In this document: piece by piece, positions 9,002 through 60,740 of the stretch
Numbering within the stretch: the first letter of the stretch is position 1
Layout: every line of letters begins with the position of its first letter
DNA from: a bacterium HR19
Lineage (GTDB): Bacteria > Calescibacteriota > Calescibacteriia > Calescibacteriales > Calescibacteriaceae
DNA length: 64,000 bases
Assembly (NCBI GenBank): GCA_002898315.1
Contig: BEHV01000005.1
Coordinates: 62,001-126,000 of the forward strand
Reading direction: 5' to 3'
Notes under the pieces: model-generated
The model's database searches: none
Seen by the model: the letters and a program-made list of their open reading frames with translations, nothing else
Told to the model about the DNA's origin: nothing
Position numbers and translations under genes: made by a program

Positions 9002-9034
9002 AATCAATTGGTAAGGGAGAGAATATTAGGGGGA

Positions 9035-9997: not shown

Positions 9998-10047
9998 AAC
10001 AAAATTTTAATTTGAATTGTTTTACATTTGAGAGAATTCTGAAATAT

Positions 10048-10935
10048 TCATATTTTCAAAATGTCAAATATCTTTCTCACATCTTCAAGTTGAGATGTTG
10101 TCATTGAAGCAATTTTTTCTTCTATTTTTTCTCTTATCTTGTTCTTCAAATTCTCTGATATATTTTTTTCGTTTTTTCTTATGAACGATAAAAGCGATTC
10201 AAGAGCTTCCTTTCTCATGTTTTCTTCATCAATAGCACTCAAAATATCGTCTATCGCGTTGAGATCAGATGATATGCCACAAGCTCTCAGATATACTCCC
10301 GCTATAATGGGGTCTTTCACATCATCAAACTTCTCTTTCAGGAGAAGATGGGCTTTATCATAATCTAACCTGATTATAGCTTCTATCAAGAACATCAGAG
10401 AGTAAAGATCGTCTTTTGAAACTTTTCTGAACAGCTCTATGATTTTGCTCAAAGAAGAAGTATCTCCAAGACGCGATAGATATTCAGCAGAAGAAACAAA
10501 AACATTGGTATCAGGATCATCAAGCCCTCGTCTTATAAGATCTGCATCTCCCAGCTCAAAAGCAATGTCAAGAGCAAATTTCCTTATATCTCTATCATGG
10601 TCTTTCATTAACCTTGGAAGGACTGATTTATCTCTGTTATTTATAATTATCCTTTGTGCAACACTCCTTATATATGCGTTATCTGACCAGAGAAGCTTGA
10701 CAACTTTTTCTTTAACTTTTGGGTAAAGAGCTGTCAGAATTTCTTCCGCCCTTTTTCCGGGAATTCCCTTTCTTTTTTCTAAGATTTTAACAAGAACATC
10801 AAAAAGTTCATTCAATTCCTGTTGGTTTAAGCTATGTAGTTTCAGCTCAATAACATCAAGAATATCTATAATTTTATCATCTTCTTCTGTTGAGAGGTCA
10901 ATCTTTTTCAGTTTCTCTATTTCTTCGTTTGCCAT
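10048..10935 (-). CDS. HEAT-repeat-like helical protein of unknown function
   Basis: 295 residues, entirely helical in appearance, with no signal peptide or membrane segment. Repeating patterns such as IRSVAQRIIINNRDKSVLPRL, DIRKFALDIAFELGDADLIR and VFVSSAEYLSRLGDTSSLSK look like HEAT or PBS-lyase-type repeats of about 30 residues. Such proteins usually serve as protein-binding scaffolds. It lies 50 bases upstream of trxB on the same strand and follows the ribokinase gene, so the three may share a transcript. No enzymatic motif is visible. Confidence 0.7.
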   Translation of the reverse strand: MANEEIEKLKKIDLSTEEDDKIIDILDVIELKLHSLNQQELNELFDVLVKILEKRKGIPGKRAEEILTALYPKVKEKVVKLLWSDNAYIRSVAQRIIINNRDKSVLPRLMKDHDRDIRKFALDIAFELGDADLIRRGLDDPDTNVFVSSAEYLSRLGDTSSLSKIIELFRKVSKDDLYSLMFLIEAIIRLDYDKAHLLLKEKFDDVKDPIIAGVYLRACGISSDLNAIDDILSAIDEENMRKEALESLLSFIRKNEKNISENLKNKIREKIEEKIASMTTSQLEDVRKIFDILKI

Positions 10936-10984
10936 ACAGAAAAATTAAAAAATCCGAAAAGAATTAAGATAGTAATCAATTTTT

Positions 10985-11899
10985 TTATTTCAAATTTTTA
11001 AGGAAGGAGAGAACTTCGCGGATTTCTGGTATTGATTTAACAGCACCTTCTCTTGATACACAAACAGCAGACGCAGCCTGAGCCAGATTTATAGATTCTT
11101 CTAAATCTTTACCTGCACTTATCATAGCAGAAAAATATCCCGCAAATGTGTCTCCCGCTCCTGTTGAATCAACGACATCAACCTCAAAAGCGGGAAAATG
11201 TGAAATTTTTCTTCCCTTTTCTGGATTCAAAAGAACAACTCCATCTTTTCCGAGAGTTATCATAACAGAGTTATGAAACGGATAATCTTTCAGGGCATTT
11301 ACAGCCGAATCTTTATCTTTCACATCTTTACCGAATATATGCTTTGCTTCAACCTCGTTCATAATAACAAAATCTGGCAGATGAATGATTTCTCTTATCC
11401 AGCTCTTGAAAGGAGCAGTGTTAAAAACAACAATAAAATTCAGCTTGTTTTTCATTTCCATAACTGTTTGAACCACATCAAAAGGAATTTCGCATTGCAA
11501 GACGACAAAATTTGGATTACTCTGTTCAAGAACATTTCTGACATGGTTGGGACTTAACATAGCATTAGCGCCGGGAGATACAACTATCTTATTTTTACCT
11601 TTCTCATTAACAAGTATGAAAGCTATACCTGTTGAAAAGTTATCATACACTTCTGGGAAGATAGTTAAATTTTTCTCGTTTTTCAGGTAGGTTTCAATAA
11701 AGTTCCAGAAAACATCGTTCCCTACTGAGCATACAAGAGAAGTTTTTTCACCTGCTCTTGCAGAAGCTACCGCTTGATTTAATCCTTTTCCTCCGGGAGA
11801 TTGAAAGAAGCTCCCATCTGTTATAGTTTCTCCTTCTTCTGGGAACCTCTTGACCTTTATAGTGAAATCTATATTGACCGATCCGACTACAAGAATCAT
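10985..11899 (-). CDS. rbsK: Ribokinase-type PfkB sugar kinase
   Basis: 304 residues, the size of ribokinase. PfkB family signature 1 is seen as SPGGKGLNQAVASARAG (about 34-50) and signature 2 as DSTGAGDTFAGYFSA, with catalytic Asp250. The N-terminus MILVVGSVNIDF is typical of RbsK. It phosphorylates ribose or a related sugar in the cytoplasm. There is no ribose transporter or RbsD nearby, so the substrate rests on sequence pattern alone. The gene starts 9 bases after the 3' end of tRNA-Val on the same strand and is probably transcribed with it. Confidence 0.85.
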   Translation of the reverse strand: MILVVGSVNIDFTIKVKRFPEEGETITDGSFFQSPGGKGLNQAVASARAGEKTSLVCSVGNDVFWNFIETYLKNEKNLTIFPEVYDNFSTGIAFILVNEKGKNKIVVSPGANAMLSPNHVRNVLEQSNPNFVVLQCEIPFDVVQTVMEMKNKLNFIVVFNTAPFKSWIREIIHLPDFVIMNEVEAKHIFGKDVKDKDSAVNALKDYPFHNSVMITLGKDGVVLLNPEKGRKISHFPAFEVDVVDSTGAGDTFAGYFSAMISAGKDLEESINLAQAASAVCVSREGAVKSIPEIREVLSFLKNLK

Positions 11900-31014: not shown

Positions 31015-31431
31015 TTATTTTCTTCTCGTCAGAGAAATCGGCCATGGTTCAGGAATAGCGAGGAAAATAAGAGCAGACCCCATAAGTCCCATATTTTTCA
31101 TAAACTGAATCATCTGCATCATCTTCATCTGTGGGTCTTGCTCAGCCCAGAAGTTATGCATAATCAAAGTTACAGGAATAAAGAAAGCGACAAGCGAGAG
31201 GACTCCAATCCACGGCATAAAGCCGGTGAGGATGGTAAAGCCACCAACAATAAGCAGTATTCCGGCAACAATCACTCCCGCTTCCGGCATAAAACTGAAC
31301 TTTGAGGCAGCATATTGGCTCATCATCTTGAATTTAGTGAAGTGTTGTACCCCAGCCATGATGTAATATAAACCCAATATTATCCTTCCGATCAGAAACC
31401 CTACATTTTTTAACCATTTTAGTCCTTCCAT
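31015..31431 (-). CDS. DoxX family membrane protein
   Basis: 138 residues with four predicted membrane helices and the DoxX pattern: RIILGLYYIMAGVQHFTKF, VAGILLIVGGFTILTGFMPWIG, and a last helix MGSALIFLAIPEPW. The family is linked to redox and thiol stress but has no single known reaction. It follows the Crp-type regulator and CDGSH genes on the same strand and is probably part of that operon. A Met-rich loop (QMKMMQMIQFMKNMGLMG) is notable. Confidence 0.85.
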   Translation of the reverse strand: MEGLKWLKNVGFLIGRIILGLYYIMAGVQHFTKFKMMSQYAASKFSFMPEAGVIVAGILLIVGGFTILTGFMPWIGVLSLVAFFIPVTLIMHNFWAEQDPQMKMMQMIQFMKNMGLMGSALIFLAIPEPWPISLTRRK

Positions 31432-31463
31432 ATTTCAACTGCCTCCTTTCAAATCTTGACACT

Positions 31464-31679
31464 TTATCCTTCCTTGATTTTTTCTATTTTTACCTCGTAT
31501 CTTTTTCCATCTTCGTCGTAAAAGTATAGTTTTCCTTCTTGCTCGACTCTTGTCTTTTTGTGTTTTCCAGAGCAGTAAGGTGGATTATCTGTCAGACCGC
31601 ATCTACATATCCACACACTTTCTCCACCTACCTTTATCTCTATTGGAGAATTGTCTTTTCTTATTATTATTCTTGCCAT
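31464..31679 (-). CDS. CDGSH iron-sulfur domain protein
   Basis: 71 residues. The cluster motif is complete: Cys25, Cys27, Cys36 and His40 in CRCGLTDNPPYCSGKH, as in [2Fe-2S] CDGSH (mitoNEET-type) proteins. It binds a redox-active, labile [2Fe-2S] cluster. No membrane anchor is visible. Its start overlaps the end of the Crp-type regulator gene by 13 bases and DoxX follows, suggesting an operon responding to redox or oxygen state. Confidence 0.93.
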   Translation of the reverse strand: MARIIIRKDNSPIEIKVGGESVWICRCGLTDNPPYCSGKHKKTRVEQEGKLYFYDEDGKRYEVKIEKIKEG

Positions 31680-32263
31680 AGCAGTTTTTTATTTTTATCA
31701 TTCTCTAACTCTTTTTCTGTGATATATAACACAATCTTCTTTCTTTTTCTTTTTACTTTTCCTTTATCTTCAAGAACTTTGAGAGTTTTTGTAACACACT
31801 CACGGGTTGCACCTACAAAAGACGCTATCTCTTCATGAGAAAATGAAAGCTCAACATATTTGTGACTTTTTTTACCCAGCTTTTGAGCTATGTAATAAAT
31901 TATCTCCTCCGTCCTCTCCTCAAGAGGTAAAAAAGAGAAATCTCTTATTCTCCTTTTGTATAGGTTGTTCTTCTTTATAAGGTTTTCAATTATGATAGCA
32001 CTTATACTTGGCTTTAACTTCTTTATCTCTTCTTTTGAGATAAAAACAATTTTGCAATCTTCAACACATTCTGCCCATTCCTCGGAGAGTCCGTCAAATC
32101 TTCCAAAAACCTCTCCCTCCGAAAGAATATCAATAGATATTTCTTTCCCGTTCTTATCTAAAAAGTATATTTTCACTTTCCCTTCCTTTATAACCATCAC
32201 TCCTTCTATTTCATCATAAGGTGTATAAACGAGTTCTCCCTTTCTGAAACTCAAAACTTTCAT
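31667..32263 (-). CDS. Crp/Fnr family transcription regulator
   Basis: 198 residues. An N-terminal cyclic-nucleotide-type beta-roll (EGVMVIKEGKVKIYFLDKNGKEIS, SEGEVFGRFDGL) is followed by a dimer helix and a winged HTH (LSFSHEEIASFVGATRECVTKTLKVLEDKGKV). It lacks the four-Cys cluster site of Fnr, so it would not bind an oxygen-sensitive [4Fe-4S]; heme/NO sensing (Dnr type), cyclic nucleotide or direct redox control remain possible. The first gene of the operon with CDGSH and DoxX. Confidence 0.9.
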   Translation of the reverse strand: MKVLSFRKGELVYTPYDEIEGVMVIKEGKVKIYFLDKNGKEISIDILSEGEVFGRFDGLSEEWAECVEDCKIVFISKEEIKKLKPSISAIIIENLIKKNNLYKRRIRDFSFLPLEERTEEIIYYIAQKLGKKSHKYVELSFSHEEIASFVGATRECVTKTLKVLEDKGKVKRKRKKIVLYITEKELENDKNKKLLWQE

Positions 32264-47941: not shown

Positions 47942-49003
47942 TCAAACCTCAATGTCTTTATACTTGTTTTCCCATTCTTCCCAATCAGGAGTGAAATATC
48001 TCAATCTTACCTTTTTATATTCTTTTGTTGATACGAGACCGGCAAAATTCTTTACCCCTGTCTCGTTTGACATTTTTTCTATTATTTTATCTGCTTCCTC
48101 CTTATCTCTTGCGTGTATCATTGTAAAGATTGAGTATGGCCAAGATGGATAAGTTGGTCTCCGGTAGCAATGACTCACACTCCTGAAAGATGCGAACTTC
48201 ATTCCAATTGAATCAATATATTCGTCAGAACCATTTACTTCCCAAACAGCCATAACGTTATATGTGTATCCTGCCCTTTTGTGATATAGTATTGCAGCAT
48301 ATCTTCTTATTTTTCCTTCTGACTTGAACTTTTCAAACCATTTTTTTAGCTCCTCAAAGGAAAATCCATATTTATCGCATATAAAATCAAAAGGTTGTTT
48401 TTCGGGCATTATATTTTCTTGCAGAGCTAGAATCGCTGGAATCTCTTCTGGTTCAACACCTATAACTTTTCTTTCCTTCTCTGTATAGAATTTATATTTA
48501 TCTTCTCCTGTGAGGTCCTCTTCTCCGGTCATATCAAGGACAACTCCTATTTTGTAGAGTTTTATCGTGGGGAGCATTATCATCTCGTCTGCGGAGCTTA
48601 TTTTTTCAAGAATTTTAACAGTTCTTTCAAGTCCGATTTTTGAGTTTGGTGGAACCGCTATTGTGAACCACAGATTGAAATCGTGATTTCTTCTGTAGTT
48701 ATGACTCACTCCGGGGTGAGTATTTATAATTCTCGCGCACTCTTCTTCAAATTCTTTCTTCACCTTTGCTGCAACGAGCATAGATTTATATCCCAAAGAC
48801 CTTGTATCAAAAATAGCGCAAATCTGCCTTATAATCCTTCTTTCAAAGTATTCCTTAACTATATCTATAACTTCGTCTTCAGATAGAGAAACGGTTTCAG
48901 CTATTTTTTTAAAAGGTCTTCTCTCAAAAGGGAGGTCCGCCTGAATCAGATTCAAAACACTCTTTTTTGCCAGCTCTTTCTTCTCATCAGACACAACCAA
49001 CAT
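47942..49003 (-). CDS. Fused siroheme decarboxylase AhbA-AhbB/NirDL-type, Lrp-like fold
   Basis: 353 residues made of two similar halves. The first has PGVSHNYRRNHDFNLWFT (His101, Tyr103, Arg104, Arg105), the second SVSHCYRRPTYPSWPYSI (His278, Tyr280, Arg281, Arg282). These are the diagnostic sites of siroheme decarboxylases (AhbA/AhbB, NirD/L/G/H). The enzyme removes acetate carboxyls of siroheme toward didecarboxysiroheme, on the route to heme (Ahb pathway) or heme d1 (Nir). Usually two separate proteins form a complex; here they are one chain. It converges with ctaB, 26 bases apart. Confidence 0.9.
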   Translation of the reverse strand: MLVVSDEKKELAKKSVLNLIQADLPFERRPFKKIAETVSLSEDEVIDIVKEYFERRIIRQICAIFDTRSLGYKSMLVAAKVKKEFEEECARIINTHPGVSHNYRRNHDFNLWFTIAVPPNSKIGLERTVKILEKISSADEMIMLPTIKLYKIGVVLDMTGEEDLTGEDKYKFYTEKERKVIGVEPEEIPAILALQENIMPEKQPFDFICDKYGFSFEELKKWFEKFKSEGKIRRYAAILYHKRAGYTYNVMAVWEVNGSDEYIDSIGMKFASFRSVSHCYRRPTYPSWPYSIFTMIHARDKEEADKIIEKMSNETGVKNFAGLVSTKEYKKVRLRYFTPDWEEWENKYKDIEV

Positions 49004-49053
49004 AAAAGAAAATTTTAAACGAAAATATTCAATTTGTAATATTTTGAATTTGT

Positions 49054-49977
49054 TTAGTTATACGAACTTATTATTTGAAGTATCTTTTTAGAGATAATTT
49101 CGGAGACATTTTTTGGTATAGAAAAATTTGCAAATTTTGTTTTTTCTATTATTTCATAGGCGACATCTAAAAAATCACGGGTTCCTCTTTCAAACCATTT
49201 AGCGACATCAATTCCCAATATCTCTCCTGCTTTTTTTAACCTCAATATAGATGCGGTGATGTGAAAAGTCCATTCAAGCTGTTTTAAGAGGATTCTTATC
49301 TGCTCAAGATATGAGATTTTATTTATCACTTCTGGGAGATATTTTCTGGCAAATCCAACATGTTTTGCCTCATCACGAGCCATATAATCTAAAAGCCCTT
49401 TTAATATGGGTTCTTTGTAGCACTCTTTTAAGGCGGTGAAAAGGTAGTATGCAACAGTTTCTGTAAGCAGATGAAGTCCGACCATTTTCAGAGCGACCGA
49501 ACGAGTTCTCAAAACATCGTCTAAAACACAGCGGGAGTTCGGGTCTATTTCTGGTATATTGCCGAGCATAGAAAGATACTTCTGATATGCTGTGACATGT
49601 TTTGCTTCTTCTATGACCTGTGCGGAGAGCACTTTTTTTGCATCCATATCTTGAACCATGTTGAGAAGCTGGGAAGCAACAAGCATAGCAACAATTTCTC
49701 CGTAGTATATTATAGAAAGGATTTTGAGGAGCGCATCTTTTTCTTCTTGTGGTATATGAGGAAATCCATATTTTTCAAGCAGTGAGTTGAAGACCTCAGT
49801 ATCATCCCAGAAATGTTTTTTTGAAAGTTCGTAAGATTTATCAAGGAGTGGGTACTTAACTTTCAGGTTCTCATAAGAGTAAGGGTTAAATTCTATTTTG
49901 GGAGCGAACTTTTGGAAACCGAGTTTGCCTTTTGCCAAGTATAAACCCAACTTATCTATAATCTGTCCGACAGACAT
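49054..49977 (-). CDS. Ferritin-like di-iron protein, R2-like/oxygenase type
   Basis: 307 residues from ATG 49977 (a GTG at 49980 precedes it). Helical, with two ExxH-type metal helices: Glu95, Glu125, His128 (EEAKH) and Glu174, Glu204, His207 (DEAKH), numbered from the GTG. This is a complete carboxylate-bridged di-iron site, as in RNR R2-like, AurF-like and related oxidases or ferritin-like proteins. There is no Tyr radical motif I can identify. It may oxidise a small substrate or scavenge oxygen. It follows two tandem operator-like repeats (50005-50050). Confidence 0.8.
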   Translation of the reverse strand: MSVGQIIDKLGLYLAKGKLGFQKFAPKIEFNPYSYENLKVKYPLLDKSYELSKKHFWDDTEVFNSLLEKYGFPHIPQEEKDALLKILSIIYYGEIVAMLVASQLLNMVQDMDAKKVLSAQVIEEAKHVTAYQKYLSMLGNIPEIDPNSRCVLDDVLRTRSVALKMVGLHLLTETVAYYLFTALKECYKEPILKGLLDYMARDEAKHVGFARKYLPEVINKISYLEQIRILLKQLEWTFHITASILRLKKAGEILGIDVAKWFERGTRDFLDVAYEIIEKTKFANFSIPKNVSEIISKKILQIISSYN

Positions 49978-49987
49978 CACAATAATA

Positions 49988-50087: not shown

Positions 50088-51467
50088 TCATCTGCACCTT
50101 TTAATTCCGTATTTTTTGATGAGACGGTATAGTGTAGAACGGGGGATGCCAGATAACTGCGAAGCTTTCTCTAAATCTCCATCGGTCTCATCAACCAATT
50201 TTTTGATGTAATCTCTTTCAAAATCTTCAATTACTTTTCTTCTCAATTCAAAGAAAGAATTTGAAAAATCAGGAGAATCTGTACCGGGGCGAGCAGGTTC
50301 AGAGAAAACTATATTATCTGGCAAATCATCTATTGTTATGATGTTCTTTTTTGAGAAAACCACAAGCTTTTTCATAAGGTTTTGGAGTTCTCTTACATTC
50401 CCGGGCCAGTTATAATTTTTCAGAGCTTCAAGAGCTTCATCGTCAATCTCAATCTTTCCCTTATTTAATTCACGGGAATATTTTTCAAGAAAATAATTTA
50501 TAAGCTCTTCAACATCTTCTTTCCTTTCTCTCAAAGGTGGTATATGTATTCTGAAAGCACTTATTCTCCACCAGAGGTCTTCTCTGAACCTACCTTCTTT
50601 TACATCTTTTTCTATATTTCTGTTTGTAGCGAAGATTATTCTGACATCAACTTTTATCTCCCTGTTCCCTCCGAGCCTTCTTATTGTTTTATCTTGCAAG
50701 AACCTGATGAATTTGGCTTGCATCTGATATGGCATTTCTGTAATTTCATCTAAAAAAAGAGTTCCTCCTTCCGCCCATTCAGCAATTCCCACTCTTGATG
50801 ATACAGCTCCTGTAAAGGCACCTTTTTCATAACCAAATAATTCTGCTTCAAAGAGGTCAGGAGGTATAGCAGCGCAGTTTAAGGCAACAAACTTTTCCCT
50901 TCCAGAAAGCTTATGTATATATCTTGCTATAAGTTCTTTTCCTACACCTGTCTCACCTGTTATGAGGACATCAACATTTATTTTAGCCAAGTCCTTTGAT
51001 ATATTTATTACTTCTTCCATCTTTTTGCTTCTGAAAACTATATCTGTGTACTCGTAGTCCGATATTTTGAGGATTCTGTATCCGTTTTTCAGGTCAAGAA
51101 GCTCAAGCGCCTTTTTCAATGTGAACTTAAATTCATCAATATGGAATGGTTTTACAATAAAGTCATAGACATGTAGTTTCAAAGCTTTCAGAGCACTTTC
51201 AAGAGAAGGGAAAGCAGTCATGATTATAACCGTTGTATCAGGTGAGATTGATTTTATCATCTTTGTCAGTTCTATCCCGTCCATTTCAGGAAGTTTCAGG
51301 TCGCACACAGCAATATCAAAGAAAATTTTTTTGACTTTCTCAATAGCTTTTGAGGGACTGCTCTCAACAAAAACCTCTATCTCTTTTGAATCAAAATCTG
51401 ACTCAAGTTCTGATTTCAAGACAGAGAGCAGATCTTCATCGTCATCTACTATGAGAATTCTTCTCAT
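50088..51467 (-). CDS. NtrC-family sigma-54-dependent response regulator
   Basis: 459 residues from ATG 51467; the frame open to 51542 is inside the kinase gene and adds an unlikely leader. The receiver domain has phospho-acceptor Asp56 (CDLKLPEMDG). The AAA+ domain has Walker A GETGVGKE (171-178) and the sigma-54 contact loop GAFTGA (216-221). A Fis-type HTH ends the protein (EKASQLSGIPRSTLYRLIKKYG). It activates transcription from sigma-54 promoters. It overlaps the kinase gene by 26 bases and is the last gene of the nos region. Confidence 0.95.
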   Translation of the reverse strand: MRRILIVDDDEDLLSVLKSELESDFDSKEIEVFVESSPSKAIEKVKKIFFDIAVCDLKLPEMDGIELTKMIKSISPDTTVIIMTAFPSLESALKALKLHVYDFIVKPFHIDEFKFTLKKALELLDLKNGYRILKISDYEYTDIVFRSKKMEEVINISKDLAKINVDVLITGETGVGKELIARYIHKLSGREKFVALNCAAIPPDLFEAELFGYEKGAFTGAVSSRVGIAEWAEGGTLFLDEITEMPYQMQAKFIRFLQDKTIRRLGGNREIKVDVRIIFATNRNIEKDVKEGRFREDLWWRISAFRIHIPPLRERKEDVEELINYFLEKYSRELNKGKIEIDDEALEALKNYNWPGNVRELQNLMKKLVVFSKKNIITIDDLPDNIVFSEPARPGTDSPDFSNSFFELRRKVIEDFERDYIKKLVDETDGDLEKASQLSGIPRSTLYRLIKKYGIKRCR

Positions 51468-52788
51468 AAGGGAAATATATATAAAATGTAGTTCCCTTTC
51501 CCTTTTGGGACGAAAATTCAATTTTTCCGCCATATGACTCAACTATTCTTTTGACAGAAGATAAACCTATGCCTGTTCCTTCTTCTTTTGTCGTGAAGAA
51601 TGGTTCAAAAATTTTGTCTTTTATATCATCTGGAATGCCCTCGCCCGTATCTTTGACTTCAATAACAACAGAATCGTACTTATCATAAAATCTTATTAAG
51701 ATAAATTTCTGCTCTGTTTTTCTTACCGCATCTATTGAGTTGAGGATAAGGTTCAAGATGATATGTTCTAAGTCATTTTGATTTAACGGTAGAAATTTTG
51801 ATTGTGTCAGAATCTCGCATTTTATATCTATTTTAAGTTTTTCTAATTTTCCTCTCACAAGGTAAAGGACTTCATCCACTGCTCTGTGAATATCGGCAAG
51901 TTCTTCTTTCATTCCCATCTCTACACCCTTTCTTTTTCTCACAAAAGAAAGAAATTTTGAGACCGAGGAGAAAACCTTTTTCACCTGATTTTCAAGAAGA
52001 TCAAAATCTTTCTGCATCTCGGGGGGAACCTTTGTTTTCAATCTTTCTACCTGCGAGAGAAGAACAGTCATAGGAGTGCTAACATCGTGAAAAAGCTGAG
52101 AAGCTATTTCTCCAGCTGTAGCAACCTTTGAACTTTGAATAAGCTCTAATCTGAGTTCCTTCTCTTTCCTTATTTTTTCTTTCAAAAGTTCAGATAATTT
52201 GAAAGCAAAGTACCACGAAATTAAGATGACTATGGAAAATGCAAAGAGCCATCCTAAACCTACAAAATGATGAGAGAGCTTTATATCAAAAAGCGGAATA
52301 ACATCAAAAGAGATGAGAAAAGTTATGAGTGAAAAGATGAAAATGACTGAAAAAACAACGAGCAATGAGATTTTCCGGGGAAAAATAACACTTGCTATAA
52401 ATATATGAAATAAATAAACCGAAAGGAATGGGTTCTTATACCAACCGGAAAAATAAAGCATAAGAGATAAAATTATGAGGTCCGAATACATCTGAAAAAT
52501 GAGGTGATATGAAGGTTTCAGTTTCATCTGAATTCTGGAGAACAAGATATTTGAAATACCTACAATAGCGCAGAGAACAAAGAGAATCAAACTGTTTAAG
52601 GGTTGAACTAATCTGAAAATTGTAGAAAAAAATATAAGAGTTGTAGAAGACGCAAAAGCTAACCACCTTAAATTTATAAACCATCTGACAATTTCTCCTT
52701 CTTCCTCTTGTGATAGGTCTGGAACGAGTTTAAACTCCATAAGTCTCATAAAAGAATGAATTTTAAATTGCAGGTAGGAAAATAGCAT
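51442..52788 (-). CDS. Membrane histidine kinase
   Basis: 448 residues. Six membrane helices in the first 200 residues are followed by a HisKA-type dimer domain with His234 in LFHDVSTPM, and an ATPase domain with NDLEHIILNLILNSIDAV, DTGEGIPDD and GTGIGLSSV. There is no periplasmic or PAS sensor domain, so the stimulus is likely read inside the membrane, as in quinone-sensing kinases such as RegB; that comparison is inference. It phosphorylates the adjacent NtrC-type regulator. It starts 6 bases after nosY. Confidence 0.93.
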   Translation of the reverse strand: MLFSYLQFKIHSFMRLMEFKLVPDLSQEEEGEIVRWFINLRWLAFASSTTLIFFSTIFRLVQPLNSLILFVLCAIVGISNILFSRIQMKLKPSYHLIFQMYSDLIILSLMLYFSGWYKNPFLSVYLFHIFIASVIFPRKISLLVVFSVIFIFSLITFLISFDVIPLFDIKLSHHFVGLGWLFAFSIVILISWYFAFKLSELLKEKIRKEKELRLELIQSSKVATAGEIASQLFHDVSTPMTVLLSQVERLKTKVPPEMQKDFDLLENQVKKVFSSVSKFLSFVRKRKGVEMGMKEELADIHRAVDEVLYLVRGKLEKLKIDIKCEILTQSKFLPLNQNDLEHIILNLILNSIDAVRKTEQKFILIRFYDKYDSVVIEVKDTGEGIPDDIKDKIFEPFFTTKEEGTGIGLSSVKRIVESYGGKIEFSSQKGKGTTFYIYFPYEKNSHSR

Positions 52789-52794
52789 TACATC

Positions 52795-53637
52795 TTAAAA
52801 ACTTTTGAATTTGAAGATGAAGAATGAAAGAGATAAGATAGAGAATCCTATAAATAGCATGGAAAAAAATGAGAAGGGAATAAGCCATTTGCCCAAAATT
52901 GAGTAAATATACATCCCGAAAGGTCCTAAAATATCAAGAGATTGAGAAAAGAGAGAGATAGTTGAAATCCTGAAAATTTCTGTTGGGTTCAAGAAAACAC
53001 ATAGGAAAAAAATGAAATTTGGAAGGGTTGAGACCTGAATCACCCCAAGTATCCCAATTTCACCACCTACCGTGAAGATAAACCACAAAATAATAGCCAA
53101 AGCTATGGCAGACGATTTAGAGGAAGTAAGGGAAGAAATCAGAAGCCCTAAGCTTACGAAGACAAAAGATAAAGCAAGTATAAAAATCAAGATAATCATA
53201 AAGTTCATAAAATCTTCCGCGCCGGGTCTTATGAAAAAAGAAACAAGCGGAAAAACAATAGCTGGCGGAATAATATTCGCCGAAAAAGAAGATAAAAAGC
53301 TTGAAATGAAATACTCTGCTCTACTCAGAGGGAAAGAGAATACATATTCAAGAGATAGATTTTCTCTCGCTCCTGCAATAGATAAACTTGAAGGGAGGAT
53401 AGAAAAAAGAGGGACAAAGATGATAGATATATTTATAAGCGTAGCCATAAGCTTTCCAAAACCCTTATACCCGTATAGCCCTTGATTTACGCCAGCATAA
53501 CCAAATCCCAAAGCCAGCAGAGAGAATGTGAGAACATAGATAAAAAACAAACGGGAACGAAGGATTTCTTTAAAACCGATACTAAAAAGTGATTTTATAA
53601 CCGGGAATCTCAAAGATGATATTTTTTCTTGATTCAT
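52795..53637 (-). CDS. nosY: NosY-like ABC permease for N2O reductase assembly
   Basis: 280 residues with about six membrane helices. The region IAGARENLSLEYVFSFPLSRAEYF is characteristic of NosY. With NosF (ATPase) and NosD it forms the complex that supplies sulfur to NosZ copper sites. It lies immediately upstream of the kinase gene. The order F-L-Y is conserved in clade II clusters except for the position of nosL. Confidence 0.92.
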   Translation of the reverse strand: MNQEKISSLRFPVIKSLFSIGFKEILRSRLFFIYVLTFSLLALGFGYAGVNQGLYGYKGFGKLMATLINISIIFVPLFSILPSSLSIAGARENLSLEYVFSFPLSRAEYFISSFLSSFSANIIPPAIVFPLVSFFIRPGAEDFMNFMIILIFILALSFVFVSLGLLISSLTSSKSSAIALAIILWFIFTVGGEIGILGVIQVSTLPNFIFFLCVFLNPTEIFRISTISLFSQSLDILGPFGMYIYSILGKWLIPFSFFSMLFIGFSILSLSFFIFKFKSF

Positions 53638-53655: not shown

Positions 53656-54120
53656 TCAATCTTCCGCTTTTTGTTTTACACGCTCCAAAAATTGTTTGAA
53701 GTCCATACATTCGCCTTTACATCTTGATCTTTCAAAAGCAACAAATCCATAGTTCATAGGAGTTGTAAAACCGGAGGAAAAGAGAGCAGAATTTTCGGCA
53801 TCAAGCCACTCTCCTGTTTCAAAATCAACAACCCATACTTTCTTGATATTTTCTTTTTCTTCAAGGTAAGATAAGGCAAGACAACCAAGGTCATCAAATT
53901 TTTTCACCTTGCCGTTTTTCAGAATGTATTCTCCTGCATACTTTTTTTCTGTAATGTGCATTTTACAGTATGAACAAGTATCACCCGGCAGAAAATCAAC
54001 GGGTTTCTCGCCGTTTTTTGGACACTTCCCAAAGACCAGAAAGAGAAAACCAAAAGATAAAAGAATGTATTGCGTTCTCAGACCCGCATATTTTTTATTT
54101 ATCCTCCCTTTCTCGCTCAT
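53656..54120 (-). CDS. nosL: NosL copper chaperone
   Basis: 154 residues. A membrane segment precedes Cys33, and the copper-binding motif CSYCKM (Cys49, Cys52, Met54) follows. Then come FDDLGCLALSYL and TPMNYGFVAF, all typical of NosL, which delivers Cu+ to NosD/NosZ in the periplasm. The lipobox around Cys33 (FGKC) is not ideal, so the anchor could be a lipid or an uncut helix. Cys-rich C-terminus RCKGEC is unusual. Confidence 0.93.
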   Translation of the reverse strand: MSEKGRINKKYAGLRTQYILLSFGFLFLVFGKCPKNGEKPVDFLPGDTCSYCKMHITEKKYAGEYILKNGKVKKFDDLGCLALSYLEEKENIKKVWVVDFETGEWLDAENSALFSSGFTTPMNYGFVAFERSRCKGECMDFKQFLERVKQKAED

Positions 54121-54146: not shown

Positions 54147-54827
54147 TCAGATTATTCTATCATTTTCAATTTTGTAGTTTTCTAAAAATTCTTTATATCC
54201 TCCGTCAAATTTTATTTTTCCTTGGTTCATATAAATCACCCTTGTAGCAAAAGATACATCTTGTAATCTATGTGTAGAGATGATTTGAGTTGATTCAAGT
54301 TCTTTGAGAAAATCAAACAGTTTTTTCTGAGCTGAAACATCAAGATGAGAGAATGGTTCATCAAGGAGGAGAATTTTTGGTTTCCCTGCAAGAGCAAGAG
54401 AGAGAAAAAGTTTTTGTCTCATACCTCCTGAAAGTTCGGTTAATTTTTTGTTCTCAATTGACGAGAGTTCAAGCTCAAAGAAATCAAACATCTCTGAAAA
54501 ATTTGAAAGAGGAATACACTTTGAAACAGAGACAAAATTTATAAGGTCCTTTACTTTTACGGACCATATAGGGTGAACCTGAGGGCAATAGCTCAAATTT
54601 CTTTTATCATAATAATTCGGTTCCTTTGCATTTTTACCAAAGATTTTAATTTGGCCTTCAAAACTCAAAAATCCCATAATACACCTCAGAAGAGTTGTCT
54701 TTCCTGATCCGTTATATCCGAAGATGACGACCTTCTCCCCTTCCTTGATATATAAACTTATGTTTTCAAGGACTTTTTGTTCCTGAAAACTTTTGCTCAG
54801 GTTCTCTATCTCTAAAGCAAAGTTCAT
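54147..54827 (-). CDS. nosF: NosF-like ABC ATPase for N2O reductase assembly
   Basis: 226 residues. Walker A GYNGSGKTT (37-45), signature LSGGM (132-136), Walker B LLLDEP with Asp156 and Glu157, and His in STHR. It is the ATPase of the NosDFY complex. The Q-loop region YCPQVHPIWSVKV is a good family match. It lies between nosD and nosL. Confidence 0.93.
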   Translation of the reverse strand: MNFALEIENLSKSFQEQKVLENISLYIKEGEKVVIFGYNGSGKTTLLRCIMGFLSFEGQIKIFGKNAKEPNYYDKRNLSYCPQVHPIWSVKVKDLINFVSVSKCIPLSNFSEMFDFFELELSSIENKKLTELSGGMRQKLFLSLALAGKPKILLLDEPFSHLDVSAQKKLFDFLKELESTQIISTHRLQDVSFATRVIYMNQGKIKFDGGYKEFLENYKIENDRII

Positions 54828-54845: not shown

Positions 54846-56195
54846 TCAATGAGCAAAAATATCAATATTCTCTCTAATTTTATTTACAAGTTTAGGTTTT
54901 ATTTTTCTTTGTTTTTTATCCCAACCGAAAAAATCTGGATTCATTTTTGGTCTCACATCTGAAAATACGGGAGGTGGATTAAAAATAGGAAGCACGCGCG
55001 AAATTATATCTATAGCCGTTCTCAGAGGAGAAAAGTATATGAAAGATAGTTCTGGTTTCTTCGCAATAACTTCAAGGAACAGAGATGAATATTCAAACGG
55101 GAAGTCGCCATATCCATCTTTATCTTTATCGTATCCTCGGTATGTATCGAAGTAATTTGAGTACCAGAAATTTTTATCTTGAAGGACCTGCTCAAATTCT
55201 ACGATAAATAAATTTCCTACAAAAGTGTTATCTGATATTAGGTTAGGAAAGGATGGTGGAAGTACTCTTACCGCAACTATATTGAAAGCAAAGACGTTTC
55301 GTTTGATTATATTGCCAAATCTCCTCTTTGATAAAATATCATCTTCTCGTATGTCTTCACTTATCGTTTCCCCTCTGAACTCAGGAGAATTAGCAAGATA
55401 AATTCCAACGGAGTTATCTATTATGAGATTTTCTGTAAGGACGATATATGAAGCATCTTTAAATCCGACCCCAATTCCTGTAAGATATTTTGAGCTTCCA
55501 AAAACATTTTTTCTGATGAGAATTTGTTTTGAGAACATCAGAAAAGCCCCGACAACATTACCATAAAACTCATTACCTTCAAGAATATTACCATCGCTAT
55601 ACATGTAGTGCAATCCGTATCTGCTGTTTATAACATAGTTTCCAATTGTTTTCACATCGCTTGAATACCAAATAACCATATCTCTCATATTTTCCATATA
55701 GTTTTTTTCTATCATGACTCTTCTTGAATACCAGAGGCGAATTCCATCACCTCTGAACTGAAATGGTTCTCTTTCATCTCCCAAAATAACATTCCCCTTT
55801 ATAATAACATCTTCTGAATTTTTGAGATAAATACCAAAGAGGGTATTTTCAATTCTGTTTCCTTCAAGATAAACACCAGTTGCATTTTCAACCATAATTC
55901 CCGAATCCTCATGAAGAAGGTCTCTTCCAGAATTCCTCACTATCAAGTTCTTTATGGTGCAGGGGGATTTTATATAAATAACATGACCTATACCACCACT
56001 ATCCACTGCTGATATTCCTTGACCATCTATATAGATGTTTTTATCTATGATTATGTTTCCCTTGTATGCTCCACCTTGAAGGATTATTTTATCGCCATCT
56101 TTCGCTTTTTGCAGAACCTGACCGAGGTACGAAGCATCTACTTTAAAGATAGAAGAAGAAATTAAGAAGGGAAACATCAAGAAAATCTCCCCCAT
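54846..56195 (-). CDS. nosD: NosD-like periplasmic beta-helix assembly protein
   Basis: 449 residues with an N-terminal secretion signal (about 1-20). The body is a right-handed beta-helix built of short repeats such as GIMVENATGVYLEGNRIE and NTLFGIYLKNSEDVIIKGN. The NosD-specific regions FRGDGIRLWYS and RYGLHYMYSDGNILEGN are seen. It delivers copper and sulfur to NosZ from the periplasmic side of the NosFY channel. Note the gap of 98 bases to the small gene upstream, which holds a strong hairpin. Confidence 0.93.
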   Translation of the reverse strand: MGEIFLMFPFLISSSIFKVDASYLGQVLQKAKDGDKIILQGGAYKGNIIIDKNIYIDGQGISAVDSGGIGHVIYIKSPCTIKNLIVRNSGRDLLHEDSGIMVENATGVYLEGNRIENTLFGIYLKNSEDVIIKGNVILGDEREPFQFRGDGIRLWYSRRVMIEKNYMENMRDMVIWYSSDVKTIGNYVINSRYGLHYMYSDGNILEGNEFYGNVVGAFLMFSKQILIRKNVFGSSKYLTGIGVGFKDASYIVLTENLIIDNSVGIYLANSPEFRGETISEDIREDDILSKRRFGNIIKRNVFAFNIVAVRVLPPSFPNLISDNTFVGNLFIVEFEQVLQDKNFWYSNYFDTYRGYDKDKDGYGDFPFEYSSLFLEVIAKKPELSFIYFSPLRTAIDIISRVLPIFNPPPVFSDVRPKMNPDFFGWDKKQRKIKPKLVNKIRENIDIFAH

Positions 56196-56292: not shown

Positions 56293-56676
56293 TTACTTCA
56301 AGCCGGCTGCTCTTCCGGCATTTATAGCTGCTGTTGCAGTTTTAACGAGAAGTTGCCAAGCCCAGTTAGCTGTGTTTGCACATTCTTTCCAGTTATTTTG
56401 AGAACACAGTTTTTCAGCTTTCTCAAGTTCTTTTTTAGCCTGAGCAAGCCACTCGTTAGCAGATTTCCATTCGCTCCCAATAGCTGGGTCAAACTTAGCT
56501 TTTTCTTCTATTCCTTTCTGAATGAGTTCTCTTGCAACCTGTTCAACTACATTCAGAGTATCACGGGCGTTTTTAAGCCATTTTTCGGCATCTTCCTTAG
56601 TTTGAGCAAATAATGGAAAAGAACCTAAAAGTAAAGAAGATATAAAAGTAATAGTTGCTATTTTTTTACTGCTCAT
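56293..56676 (-). CDS. Small secreted helical protein between nosZ and nosD
   Basis: 127 residues from ATG 56676, with GGAGG upstream overlapping the end of nosZ; an ATG at 56682 is too close to it. A clear signal peptide (cut near LFAQ) precedes a helical body. Repeating features include EDAEKWLKNARDTLNVVEQ and EWLAQAKKELEKAEKLCSQN, with two Cys (LCSQNNWKEC). I recognise no family. Coupling to nosZ and a following terminator suggest an abundant periplasmic helper or structural partner of NosZ. No metal motif is seen. Confidence 0.8.
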   Translation of the reverse strand: MSSKKIATITFISSLLLGSFPLFAQTKEDAEKWLKNARDTLNVVEQVARELIQKGIEEKAKFDPAIGSEWKSANEWLAQAKKELEKAEKLCSQNNWKECANTANWAWQLLVKTATAAINAGRAAGLK

Positions 56677-56691
56677 AGTCATTCACCTCCT

Positions 56692-58686
56692 TTATTTTTT
56701 AGGTTTCACAATTAAATAACCAGCCATTTCAAGATGAAGAGCCGAGCAGAACTCGGAGCAGTAGAATGGGAAGACACCTGGCTTTGAGGCAACAAACTCT
56801 ACAACTCCTACTTCTCCGGGTTCAATTGAAAGGTTAATGTTGTATCCACCAAGAGCGAAGCCATGAGTGGCGTCACGTGCTCTTTCAACATTAGTGATAT
56901 ACATCACTACCCTATCTCCCTCGTTTACCTCTATTATTTCAGGAGTAAAGTGGCTTCGTATCGCTGTAGCATAAACGTAAACTGTATTGCCTTTTCTCTC
57001 AATCCTCTCTTTACCTAACTCAGTACCATAAGGAGATTTTTTCTGCACCACAGGGTCCCAACCAACCTCTGGATAGACAGTCCAAGGTTTCAGTTTATCT
57101 GCCTTTATTATTTGTGCGTAGTGAGGTTCTCCAAGTGGGATCGGCATATCATAAACAAGCTTCATCTTATCACCAGATATATCTATGAGCTGGAAGTTCT
57201 GAGGATGAAGGGGTCCAACAGTAGCAAATCTATCAATAGACCACTTGTTGAGGGCAACAACCCACTTCCCATCAGGTGAAACGGTATCGCCCTCAGCAGC
57301 AGCTATGTGTCCTATGTTGTAGTGGACAGGAAGCTTTTCTACAAGTTTCCAAGTTCCAACCTGCCACTTTGCAACAACAGATTCAATAAAAACTGATGTA
57401 TATGCAAAACCTCTGTTGTCAAAGACCGTATGGAGAGGTCCAAGTCCTATTGGAACCTGAGCTTCAACAGATTTTTTGAAGTCAATTATCGGAACACCGA
57501 ATCTATCTTTACCAGCAAAATCTCCTTGCTCTATTGCTTTTTTGATTTTCTCTATTGAGTAGACAGTAGCGTGAGTATCAAGTTTCCCTCCGACTACTAT
57601 CCATTTTCCATCAGGAGAAACATCTACTCCGTGCGGTGATTTGGGTTCGGGAGTAAAGACAAGAATTCTCTCTTTGGCAGCGATCTCGAGAGGGATAACT
57701 TTAAATTTGAATCCGCCTATACCGACAACTTCTTTGAAGTTTCCTTTGGCAACAAGTTCTTCAGCTTTTTTCCAGTTGACTATATGGAGGTAGTCCATAT
57801 CGTTTTGCGATGCGCCGATTTCAAAGAATGGATTGGGACTTCCCACTGGCTTACCTGTTGCCATCTCTGAGTTGAAAGAGTTGCAGAAAGCATAGCCATA
57901 GCTTGCGAGTTTTCCAGCATCGCAGAGGTCTTGCCAGTAAGGAGGTACCTCAACAGCAAAGGATTTTTCTGGAACTATACGCCCCTGCTTCCTATCAAAG
58001 TACCAGAATGTAATATACCCCCTATATTTTTCAGCGTACTCAGAAAGTGGAGCATACTTGCCCCCTTGCGGAACAGCATATTGAGAAGGTTCAATTATGT
58101 ATTCAGAGTTAGGAGTCACAAAAGCTGCACCGTGATTTGAATACCCAAGAGGATTGCAGACAACCTGTTTTGTTTCAAAGTCCCTTAGGTCTATCACAGC
58201 CAGACGAGAATTAGCTTTATCTCCTATGAAGAGGTATTGACCATCGTAATCTCCATTTGTTTCGCTCAGAGCAGGATGGTGAGTATCTGCCCAAGTAAGC
58301 TTTGCTCTGAGTTCGTCGCAATAGGTTCCTTGAAGCACTTTTTTGTTTTCCGCATCAAAACCCCAACCCTGCCAAGGTTCAGGAGTAAAGACGCCGATAT
58401 ACTTCAGTATTCTCATAGAAGGGATACCTATGACTATAACCTGCCCGGAATGTCCCCCCGATGAGAACATAATATATTCGTCTTTAACACCCGTCGGGTG
58501 ATATGTTTTGAGAGCATTTTCAACTGCTTCCGGACTGAGACCGCGAGCTTTTGCTATTTCAAGAGCTTTATCAAACGGTCCCTGTGCTACAATATTGCTT
58601 ATAAAAAGGGAACCAAAAATAACTCCAACAAAAAACAAAGTTAAGCCAAATAAGTTTCTTTTTAGTTTTGTTTTTATCCTACCCAT
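56692..58686 (-). CDS. nosZ: Nitrous oxide reductase, clade II (Sec-type)
   Basis: 664 residues. The N-terminus has an ordinary Sec-type signal without a twin-arginine motif, as in clade II. All seven CuZ histidines are visible: His136 and His137 (DTHHP), His185 (SNHGAAF), His352 (PKSPHGVDVSP), His419 (GLGPLHT), His460 (NIGHIAAAEGD) and His522 (GEPHYAQ). The C-terminal cupredoxin has CuA ligands His608, Cys643, Cys647, His651 and Met654 (YCSEFCSALHLEM), with Glu645 as in clade II. It reduces N2O to N2 in the periplasm. A GGAGG lies about 10 bases before the ATG. Confidence 0.97.
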   Translation of the reverse strand: MGRIKTKLKRNLFGLTLFFVGVIFGSLFISNIVAQGPFDKALEIAKARGLSPEAVENALKTYHPTGVKDEYIMFSSGGHSGQVIVIGIPSMRILKYIGVFTPEPWQGWGFDAENKKVLQGTYCDELRAKLTWADTHHPALSETNGDYDGQYLFIGDKANSRLAVIDLRDFETKQVVCNPLGYSNHGAAFVTPNSEYIIEPSQYAVPQGGKYAPLSEYAEKYRGYITFWYFDRKQGRIVPEKSFAVEVPPYWQDLCDAGKLASYGYAFCNSFNSEMATGKPVGSPNPFFEIGASQNDMDYLHIVNWKKAEELVAKGNFKEVVGIGGFKFKVIPLEIAAKERILVFTPEPKSPHGVDVSPDGKWIVVGGKLDTHATVYSIEKIKKAIEQGDFAGKDRFGVPIIDFKKSVEAQVPIGLGPLHTVFDNRGFAYTSVFIESVVAKWQVGTWKLVEKLPVHYNIGHIAAAEGDTVSPDGKWVVALNKWSIDRFATVGPLHPQNFQLIDISGDKMKLVYDMPIPLGEPHYAQIIKADKLKPWTVYPEVGWDPVVQKKSPYGTELGKERIERKGNTVYVYATAIRSHFTPEIIEVNEGDRVVMYITNVERARDATHGFALGGYNINLSIEPGEVGVVEFVASKPGVFPFYCSEFCSALHLEMAGYLIVKPKK

Positions 58687-58754: not shown

Positions 58755-59498
58755 TCAGTCATTTTGAATACTTCTTAAAATTTTTGCTCTCTCGAGCATT
58801 CCTGCTTTTTCAAACTCCTCTGGTTTTGCCGGCCATTTTGGAAGATTCGGACATAAGATAGAACATCTCTCTTTCAACGGGCAAGCGTTACATACACCCA
58901 AGCGTAGAACAAACGAAATGAAAATCAACACAAATGCTAAAGTGGCAAGATAAAATCCTAATCCAAAAGTAGCAAAAGTTTGAAACTGGGCAACTTGACC
59001 GACACCAAAAATTTTCGGAGTAAAAGGGGAAATTTTTATCGGGGCTTCGGGGTTAAGCTCATGCCCGTATTTATATAACCAGAAGAACATATCAGCAAAA
59101 AAAGCAACCGGTAAAAGCAAAGGAGGTATGACAAAAAGCACCGCTCCTTTTCTGCCCGAAAAGAGGAAAAAGAGCGCAACAAGTGATACAGCTATAATAC
59201 CGAAGAAAGCTACTTTTCTCTCAAATTTAGCAGCTTCTTCCATTTTTTTCATACCTATGTAGTGGTTTAAAATATCAAGTTCCTGCACATCTCCCTTTAA
59301 CTTATTGAGATATACGGTAACACGAAGACCCTGCGGATACTGTGGAGCAACAAGGGTAAACTTCCACCAGGGCAGAAAGAAAGAAATAAAAATCAGTACA
59401 GAAGCAGAAATAGCTAAAAACGCTACGAGCATTCTCCTTTTTGTCTGAATCATCGGACCTGGGATAAGTTTTTCTATTTTTTCAACTACCTGAACCAT
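58755..59498 (-). CDS. NosB-like membrane protein of clade II nos clusters
   Basis: 247 residues from ATG 59498 (GAGGTG 7 bases upstream; a TTG at 59504 is too close to it). A helix (about 24-44) precedes a periplasmic loop with LPWWKFTLVAPQYPQGL and LDILNHYIGM (78-83), then three more helices. The QYPxGL and NHYIGM phrases are typical of a membrane protein that recurs in clade II nos clusters (often called NosB). The C-terminal CNACPLKERCSILC with four Cys is unusual and could bind a metal. Its function is unknown; requirement for N2O respiration is inferred. Confidence 0.8.
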   Translation of the reverse strand: MVQVVEKIEKLIPGPMIQTKRRMLVAFLAISASVLIFISFFLPWWKFTLVAPQYPQGLRVTVYLNKLKGDVQELDILNHYIGMKKMEEAAKFERKVAFFGIIAVSLVALFFLFSGRKGAVLFVIPPLLLPVAFFADMFFWLYKYGHELNPEAPIKISPFTPKIFGVGQVAQFQTFATFGLGFYLATLAFVLIFISFVLRLGVCNACPLKERCSILCPNLPKWPAKPEEFEKAGMLERAKILRSIQND

Positions 59499-59522
59499 AA
59501 CCAATCACCTCTACTTTTTTAT

Positions 59523-59538
59523 TGCAAAATCTGTTCCA
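59523..59538 (-). promoter_or_regulatory. Sigma-54-type promoter of the nosB-like/nosZ unit
   Basis: On the minus strand TGGAACAGATTTTGCA has GG and GC separated by exactly 10 bases, the -24/-12 pattern of sigma-54 promoters (consensus TGGCACG-N4-TTGCA). The predicted start near 59512 lies just before the GAGGTG ribosome binding site, giving a very short leader. The NtrC-type regulator of the same cluster makes the call sensible. Confidence 0.6.
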
Positions 59539-59601
59539 TCTGAAAGTTTCTTGGAGAACAAGAAATAAAGAAAAAAAACAGCTTTCTCTCTAACATTTTT
59601 G

Positions 59602-59634
59602 TTTCATTTTTGAGAAACTTTCTCACTTTTGAGA
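59602..59634. promoter_or_regulatory. Two direct repeats upstream of the sigma-54 promoter, possible activator sites
   Basis: On the minus strand TCTCAAAAGTGAGA (59634-59621, an inverted repeat) and TCTCAAAAATGAAA (59615-59602) are two copies of one motif, 19 bases apart. They lie about 65-100 bases upstream of the -24 element, the usual place for sites of NtrC-type activators. A related string, TCTCAAAAAATCAGA, occurs at 61160-61174 upstream of the cytochrome gene. Binding is inferred. Confidence 0.5.
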
Positions 59635-59639
59635 CATCT

Positions 59640-60740
59640 TTAAAATTCTACGCTAAAAAGTATTCTCATAAAGTCATCTTTTATCTCCTTCCCTTCCAAT
59701 TTTTTAACATACTGAATCTGAGAAAGGAAAATTCCTCTGCGATACATGAGGGCGAAATTAAAAGCAAATTCATCGTTCTCATCTTTTGTTTTTGTGTCGT
59801 AAAAAGGATAGCTGTAATTCTGAAAGGTTTTCGCTCCCACAATAAATCTGAAAAAAAGATTGAAAGGAAGTTTGTAATCTATTCTGAGGTAATTTGCATA
59901 GTGGTAGTAATTTCCCACCGTCTGACGATTTCCAACAACATTCATATAGGCAAAACCGAGTTTTAGCGATAAATTTTTAAAAAATGGTATAAAGCCGTAA
60001 GCTCCCACAAAATCTGCACCCCACATAAAAAGGTCATAGTGAGGAGCGTATCTCACCCAGTAAGTAGAAGCATAAGCGGTAAGTAAAGAGTAACCCAACT
60101 TGATTCTATCACCCACTGCAAAATTTGAAGGAGAACCCGCACTTATAGTCATAATTTTTTCTGGATCACCCGAAGGACCATTGACAACATAAAAATCATT
60201 CGAAAGGAGAATTTTTTCGGTTCTGAGTATATGAGAGTTAAAGACACCACCGAGTTCAGACCATATGAAAGGAACAAACTTCTGGTCAAATCCCGTCAGC
60301 CCACCGTAATTGTGATGAAAGAGAGGGTCAGCTCCAAAAGGTACAAGCACTCTCCCGAATTTCACCGAAAACCTCGGGAATCTCACTCCAAATTCATAGA
60401 ATACTCTTTCTATCACTTCCGCTGAGAAAAAGAAATTATCTTCTGTTGTTCTTCTTGAAATGAACAAGAAATGATGGTAATTTACCAACGAATACTTACC
60501 TTCAAGTGGATTAAAATTGAAGTTTCTTGATTCAAGGGAAACATCAAATTTCGCATTTATAATCAGTCCCAAGTAATTAATATTCAGCATGCTTTCTGAT
60601 TTTCCTTCTTGATATTCTGAATCAGCATATATGATATTTGAATCAAAGAGAAGGAAAATCAAGACGAGGATAAAAAAGTTTTTTGTTTTTCTTTCTATTT
60701 CATTAAGCTCGGGGACATAGTATTTCTGTTCTCTTTTCAT
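59640..60740 (-). CDS. Predicted outer-membrane beta-barrel protein of the nos region
   Basis: 366 residues. A hydrophobic signal segment (about 22-40) is followed by alternating polar/aromatic strands typical of a porin (for example FSVKFGRVLVPFGADPLFHHNYGG and LSLKLGFAYMNVVGNRQTVGNYY) and a terminal Phe in ILFSVEF. Charged residues before the signal form a long N-terminal extension; the start is ATG 60740. It starts 12 bases after the triheme cytochrome gene. It could pass N2O, metal, or other small molecules, or be structural; nothing in sequence tells which. Confidence 0.72.
   Translation of the reverse strand: MKREQKYYVPELNEIERKTKNFFILVLIFLLFDSNIIYADSEYQEGKSESMLNINYLGLIINAKFDVSLESRNFNFNPLEGKYSLVNYHHFLFISRRTTEDNFFFSAEVIERVFYEFGVRFPRFSVKFGRVLVPFGADPLFHHNYGGLTGFDQKFVPFIWSELGGVFNSHILRTEKILLSNDFYVVNGPSGDPEKIMTISAGSPSNFAVGDRIKLGYSLLTAYASTYWVRYAPHYDLFMWGADFVGAYGFIPFFKNLSLKLGFAYMNVVGNRQTVGNYYHYANYLRIDYKLPFNLFFRFIVGAKTFQNYSYPFYDTKTKDENDEFAFNFALMYRRGIFLSQIQYVKKLEGKEIKDDFMRILFSVEF

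Follow-up and report, generated by a model that had tools for sequence, protein, structure and literature searches.

Tandem palindromes upstream of sigma-54 promoters point to a regulon for nitrogen-oxide respiration in Calescibacterota

The window, a stretch of 64,000 nucleotides, carries a nitrous oxide reductase (nos) gene cluster on its minus strand (Table 1). It belongs to genome G000 (1.88 Mb, 22 contigs, 82% complete; G002 and G003 are near relatives), one of five Calescibacterota genomes (G000 to G004) that we compared; these span three genera, are each 82-86% complete, and all contain nosZ. NosZ and NirS were reported earlier from this group (PMC4791363, PMC5877337), and the accessible portions of those reports do not take up nos/nir regulation. 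The first gene of the unit encodes a nosB-like membrane protein with no Pfam match, whose homologues adjoin nosZ in all five genomes. In G000 it is followed, with tight spacing or overlaps, by nosZ, a gene for a small secreted protein, nosD, nosF, nosL, nosY, and the genes for a membrane kinase and an NtrC-type regulator. The initial annotation had ended the cluster with such a kinase and a complete, GAFTGA-bearing NtrC-type activator, and the domains of both proteins were confirmed. Terminator-like sites between nosB and the regulator gene showed no excess over chance, and a nos operon that includes the kinase and regulator, with positive feedback, is plausible.

Two further features of the locus were recorded. 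The protein of about 129 residues encoded between nosZ and nosD is probably all-helical, gave a weak HEPN match only, and occupies this gap in all five genomes. The region downstream of the regulator (47942-49980, minus strand) encodes a fused NirDL-like siroheme decarboxylase, which probably serves haem d1 of nitrite reductase, and a ribonucleotide-reductase-small-chain-like diiron protein.

Table 1. Features of the nos locus, in the order in which they occur on the minus strand.
Feature	Position	Strand	Basis or remark
Candidate upstream activator site 1, TCTCA-AAAG-TGAGA, exact palindrome, TCTCAAAAGTGAGA	59621..59634	-	conserved position in 5 genomes
Candidate upstream activator site 2, TCTCA-AAAA-TGAAA, one mismatch, TCTCAAAAATGAAA	59602..59615	-	
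Sigma-54 (-24/-12) promoter, TGGAACA-GATT-TTGCA, TGGAACAGATTTTGCA	59523..59538	-	perfect match to TGGNACNNNNNTTGCW
nosB-like membrane protein, first gene of unit	58755..59498	-	ATG 59498; listed ORF opens at TTG 59504
nosZ, nitrous oxide reductase, clade II type organisation with nosB	56692..58686	-	PF18764 nos_propeller and COX2 copper domain
Small secreted helical protein, between nosZ and nosD	56293..56682	-	conserved
nosD	54846..56195	-	PF05048
nosF-type ABC ATPase	54147..54827	-	ABC ATPase motifs and position in nos cluster
nosL	53656..54120	-	PF05573
nosY-type ABC permease	52795..53637	-	PF12679
Membrane sensor histidine kinase, GWYKNPF motif	51442..52788	-	HisKA/HATPase; probable start 52749
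NtrC-type response regulator, proposed regulon activator	50088..51542	-	PF00072, PF00158, PF25601, PF02954; probable start 51467

Reading along the minus strand, two palindromes precede a -24/-12 element, which is followed by the start of the nosB-like gene. The element TGGAACAGATTTTGCA fits the GG-N10-GC core inside TGGCAC-N5-TTGCW and is the sole zero-mismatch match within the 64 kb to TGGNACNNNNNTTGCW, which, with no mismatch allowed, served as our strict sigma-54 pattern; the same pattern reversed served as control. A GG-N10-GC element directly ahead of the nosB-like/nosZ unit had been proposed in the initial annotation, and its coordinates and letters proved correct. Transcription from a sigma-54 promoter begins about 12 bases downstream and requires RpoN, and nosB transcription is predicted to start near 59512. 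The annotation had named absence of rpoN as grounds for rejecting its proposal; the genome encodes a single, full-length RpoN of 484 aa, with the activator-interacting (PF00309), core-binding (PF04963), and DNA-binding (PF04552) domains all in one protein. Genome-wide counts, obtained from pattern searches together with individually retrieved stretches, gave 18 strict matches in G000 compared to 2 for the reversed control, and 83 compared to 14 summed over the five genomes. The nosB element is intact in G000, G002, and G003, and was counted as intact in G001, which departs from consensus at one base of the -24 block (TGGTATAAGTTTTGCT), while in G004 the G at -13 is replaced by T (TGGAACAAATTTTTCC). 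The distance from the element to the ribosome-binding site is short and similar in the genomes read by eye.

The two upstream repeats described in the initial annotation are real, and their coordinates and letters are correct, but they are two copies of the palindrome TCTCA-N4-TGAGA rather than direct repeats. Relative to the nosB promoter they begin 96 and 77 bases upstream, with 19 bp from centre to centre. Loose single matches to the repeat pattern are common by chance (34 found in the window, 26 expected), so the evidence had to rest on pairing, position, and conservation. Under a strict pair pattern, paired palindromes were found in four of the five genomes and none in the control. A search for the repeats before nosB/nosZ in related genomes, which the annotation had called for, detected two or three copies ahead of nosB in each of the five: two copies in G000, two exact copies in G003 (including the counterpart of site 2), two in G002, three exact copies in G004, and three imperfect copies in G001.

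All eight exact palindromes of G000 could be placed. Five lie inside ORFs, and each of the three intergenic ones is upstream of a sigma-54 promoter, before the nos, nir, and Mo-reductase genes, respectively. More generally, the intergenic exact palindromes that we examined all precede regulon-type genes, with the remainder inside ORFs. In some genomes, counts of single exact palindromes were only modestly above control; single copies within ORFs were dismissed as chance. A palindrome pair at G003:C66 was dropped because it sits within an ORF, and a -12-like match inside an ORF of G002 (L160/L190), accompanied by a one-mismatch palindrome, was omitted as probably due to chance.

Palindromes combined with a strict promoter were also observed upstream of other genes. 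Before the nirS operon of G000 and G003 there are three palindromes, 21 bp apart; in both genomes the operon encodes an Alginate_exp porin, cytochrome cd1 nitrite reductase (NirS; PF02239, E 3e-127), a second cd1-domain cytochrome (NirN-like), a NirJ-like radical SAM protein, and a NirF-like protein. The nirS operon of G002 has the strict promoter, and its contig stops before the activator-site region. Two palindromes, 21 bp apart, and a strict promoter precede a Tat-type molybdopterin oxidoreductase operon in G000. This Mo-enzyme (G000:C3) was not accepted as a nitrate reductase, scoring far below every equivalog cut-off, and it matched thiosulfate/arsenate/DMSO-type enzymes weakly. The same combination was found in G000 before two genes, the first encoding a CxxCH protein and the second of no recognised family, and in G001 before a Porin_O_P gene. 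In G002, a PKD-domain lipoprotein cytochrome with eight CxxCH motifs (L127:1065-3143, plus strand) has paired palindromes and a degenerate -12 element (TGGAACAAATTTTGTT).

We assembled 22 intergenic sigma-54 promoters from the five genomes and counted palindromes with at most one mismatch within 260 bp upstream, using first-order shuffled upstream regions and in-ORF sigma-54 pattern matches as controls. At least one palindrome was present at 9 of the 22 promoters (shuffled mean 0.385) and at least two at 8 (shuffled mean 0.0025), compared to 2 and 0, respectively, of 70 in-ORF matches (Fisher P 2e-5 for at least one copy, intergenic promoters against in-ORF matches). A background estimated from the retrieved loci was discarded because these had been picked for carrying palindromes. 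In an unsupervised scan of every 5-base half-site with spacers of 0-10 upstream of the 22 promoters, TCTCA-N4-TGAGA was the commonest exact palindrome, with seven copies at six promoters and three for the runner-up; in 200 shuffled sets, the highest count for any word was 2.85 on average and at most 6. No palindrome was found at the flagellar and glnA sigma-54 promoters, and the motif thus marks one functional class of gene, as the binding site of a single activator would. The promoter, the palindromes, their conservation, their link with this class, rpoN, and the domain structures can all be read in the sequence, and together they appear to outline a Calescibacterota-wide sigma-54 regulon for nitrogen-oxide respiration, larger than first proposed. 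The initial annotation had envisaged a sigma-54 pathway dedicated to the nos cluster. Its components, namely rpoN, conserved repeats, and a canonical cluster-linked activator, are all present, but the system is not confined to that cluster: the same palindromes and promoter also stand ahead of nirS and further respiratory operons, and the regulator gene lies in the nos cluster in only two of five genomes (G000 and G003).

The nos-linked regulator has a receiver, a Sigma54_activat AAA+ domain with GAFTGA (GAFTDA in the G001 and G004 orthologues), and a Fis-type helix-turn-helix (HTH_8). Each of the five genomes has exactly one orthologue, and these form a single clade (support 96/95) with similar recognition helices, (I/V)(P/S)(R/K)xTxYR, so that palindromes and regulator co-occur in all five. 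Outside G000 and G003, the gene is on the nosZ contig, 18-84 kb away, and in G001 it abuts a sigma-54 promoter for mobA. We found nine activator-domain matches in G000, six of them strong, and the genome encodes five or six NtrC-type activators. Besides the nos-linked one, these comprise activators of the GAF type (beside glnA), the FHA type, and the PAS type, a probably flagellar response regulator, and a protein typed as RtcR-like from its sequence only. The GAF and flagellar types have their own promoters without the palindrome, and G001 and G002 yielded no FHA type. The nos-linked regulator is the most likely of these to bind the palindromes and activate the regulon.

One genome complicates this assignment. 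In G004, the regulator gene (L132:9854-11215, minus strand) is interrupted by one in-frame TGA, which falls on the Walker A glycine, and we found no orthologue of the kinase in this genome. The stop is consistent with recent decay, along with that of the degenerate nos promoter, or with an assembly error. The palindromes at nosB nevertheless remain perfect, which leaves room for another binder. The sigma-54 regulon could then be real and its palindromes bound chiefly by the PAS-type activator (group D), with the nos-linked system controlling something else. All five genomes encode group D, whose recognition helix is conserved (S-R-V-T-x-W-R), and in G002 and G004 its gene is preceded by one-mismatch palindromes. 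However, group D genes show no conserved association with genes for respiration, in contrast to the nos-type regulator with its positions in the nos cluster, beside the mobA promoter, and on the nosZ contig, and we consider binding by group D unlikely.

The kinase encoded next to the regulator resembles RegB-type proteins, for which a GGxxNPF-like motif is expected. A hydropathy scan gave six segments in G000 and six or seven windows, some overlapping, in the other three orthologues. Three of the four orthologues have GWYKNPF or, in G002, GWAENPF; that of G001 reads SGGVESP. Alignment to the ActS/PrrB/RegB model NF033792 was full-length, with a score of 92.6 bits that is far below the cut-off of 350, and the alignment contained no conserved redox cysteine in the transmitter or near the phosphorylated histidine. 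We hypothesize that the kinase may respond to a signal from the quinone pool or respiratory chain. Two further observations weigh against the model set out below: the kinase/regulator pair (42-49% identical between G000 and G002) is much less conserved than NosZ (88-89%), and no palindrome with up to two mismatches was found directly before the kinase gene.

From these elements we infer binding of the palindromes by the nos-linked regulator, operon structure, signal, expression, and the direction of regulation. RpoN-RNA polymerase would wait at the -24/-12 elements before nosB-nosZ, nirS, the molybdopterin reductase, and the porin/cytochrome genes, unable to start alone. The adjacent RegB-like membrane kinase, reporting how reduced or oxidised the quinone pool or respiratory chain is, would phosphorylate the regulator. 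The phosphorylated regulator would then bind the tandem TCTCA-N4-TGAGA palindromes, which lie 60-220 bp upstream with a spacing, in most cases, of 19-21 bp, or two helix turns. The bound regulator would form an AAA+ oligomer, loop to the promoter, and open the complex through its GAFTGA loop. In the genus of G000, the kinase and regulator genes would sit in the operon that they activate, giving positive feedback. We estimate a probability of roughly three in four that this explanation as a whole, a sigma-54 regulon for nitrogen-oxide respiration with a nos-linked two-component activator on tandem palindromes, is correct. A more ambitious version is tentative, and we rate it as possible rather than probable: a RegB-like redox kinase and an NtrC-type activator would form a master switch for nitrogen-oxide respiration that replaces Crp/Fnr, directly activates nosZ, nirS, and porin/cytochrome genes through sigma-54, and is autoregulated in the nos operon of one genus.

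Alternatively, a regulator of the Crp/Fnr type or another of the sigma-70 class could use the palindromes as operators, and the sigma-54 element would then be incidental or of secondary importance. Every genome encodes a Crp-family protein (31667-32263 in the window), and the 5-4-5 layout of the palindrome resembles that of Fnr boxes. The recognition helix of this protein, R-E-C-V-S/T-R/K, is of the classical kind expected on GA-containing half-sites, however, and TCTCA is not one; its gene partners doxX, not nos. At nosB, we detected neither a sigma-70 promoter-like site on the coding strand nor a TTGAT-N4-ATCAA-like Crp/Fnr box with up to two mismatches (59500-59760). The palindromes also lie upstream at varying distances, as far as 220 bp; this is the usual arrangement of enhancers, unlike that of class I/II sites. 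We therefore regard Crp/Fnr-type operators as quite improbable. That AT-rich intergenic DNA yields such words by composition has a negligible chance of being the explanation, since, common as loose single repeats and slightly elevated single palindromes are, the pairs and their co-occurrence with promoters far exceed shuffled expectation, are conserved across three genera, and have functionally coherent targets.

The Crp-family gene and the DoxX-family gene that follows it (31015-32263, minus strand) form a pair conserved in all five genomes. A second DoxX-family gene lies right before the nir operon and has its own sigma-54-like promoter, without the palindrome (L124:4069-4084 and L126:9194-9209; TGGAATACTTTTTGCA and TGGAATATTTTTTGCA).

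The proposed sigma-54 regulon shares parts with several known systems. Like it, the NorR regulon has an NtrC-family activator and tandem palindromic sites, in three copies in known cases, by sigma-54 promoters of nitrogen-oxide metabolism genes (PMC1274295). NorR, though, senses NO as a one-component protein through its GAF domain and recognises GT-N7-AC sites mainly at NO detoxification/NO reductase genes, whereas the Calescibacterota regulator is a two-component receiver protein, with TCTCA-N4-TGAGA as its putative site and the nosZ and nirS operons as putative targets; against the NorR equivalog it scored 309.5 (cut-off 476), with the receiver in place of GAF. DVU0621 of Desulfovibrio vulgaris, assigned to the nitrite stress response, is also a two-component sigma-54 activator, but controls DVU0624-0625 in a sulfate reducer and no denitrification operon (PMC4641369). 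NtrYX of Paracoccus and other Proteobacteria, tied to nitrogen oxides less directly, couples a membrane kinase to an NtrC-family regulator that influences denitrification genes; it differs in its NtrX box (CA-N10-GC) and in its effects, reported under iron limitation, and the accessible part of the source does not describe tandem palindromes with a -24/-12 element (PMC9409073). RegB/PrrB/ActS kinases have six hydrophobic segments and an xGxxNPF-like motif, features that the Calescibacterota kinase may share; the latter is without the redox cysteine and is partnered by an NtrC-type activator instead of RegA. In Crp/Fnr-type control (DNR, NnrR, FixK2), one palindrome likewise coordinates nir and nos operons, but through TTGAT-N4-ATCAA-type boxes and no sigma-54 promoter (PMC1274295, PMC6710368).

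Whether denitrifiers give off or take up a greenhouse gas depends on how N2O reductase is regulated, and to our knowledge the regulation of clade II nosZ outside Proteobacteria is hardly known. In hot-spring Calescibacterota, nos and nir genes appear to be switched on via sigma-54 and a two-component activator instead of the usual Crp/Fnr-type control, which suggests that core denitrification genes can be wired directly to sigma-54. Sigma-54 promoters stay silent until an activator acts on them, so a single signal would keep tight control over transcription of nos and nir in these thermophiles. With the conserved palindrome as a sequence handle, the regulon can be defined and its signal sought without cultivation. 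Our literature search, with most subscription papers outside its coverage, found no description of direct sigma-54 control of nosZ or nirS, and a large comparative survey of sigma-54 regulons mentions neither these genes nor denitrification (PMC12316311).

Among 25 nos loci outside the phylum, none had a strict sigma-54 site with palindrome pairs, and one, L046 from a Nitrospirae genome, had an NtrC-type regulator beside nosZ. There (6978-11872), genes for a GAF-kinase and the regulator lie directly upstream of nosZ, with a sigma-54-like element (AGGCACGCAAATTGCA) between, and given this arrangement in Nitrospirae, the sigma-54-nosZ wiring may have arisen more than once. A protein similar in size to that encoded between nosZ and nosD in Calescibacterota also follows nosZ at L046.
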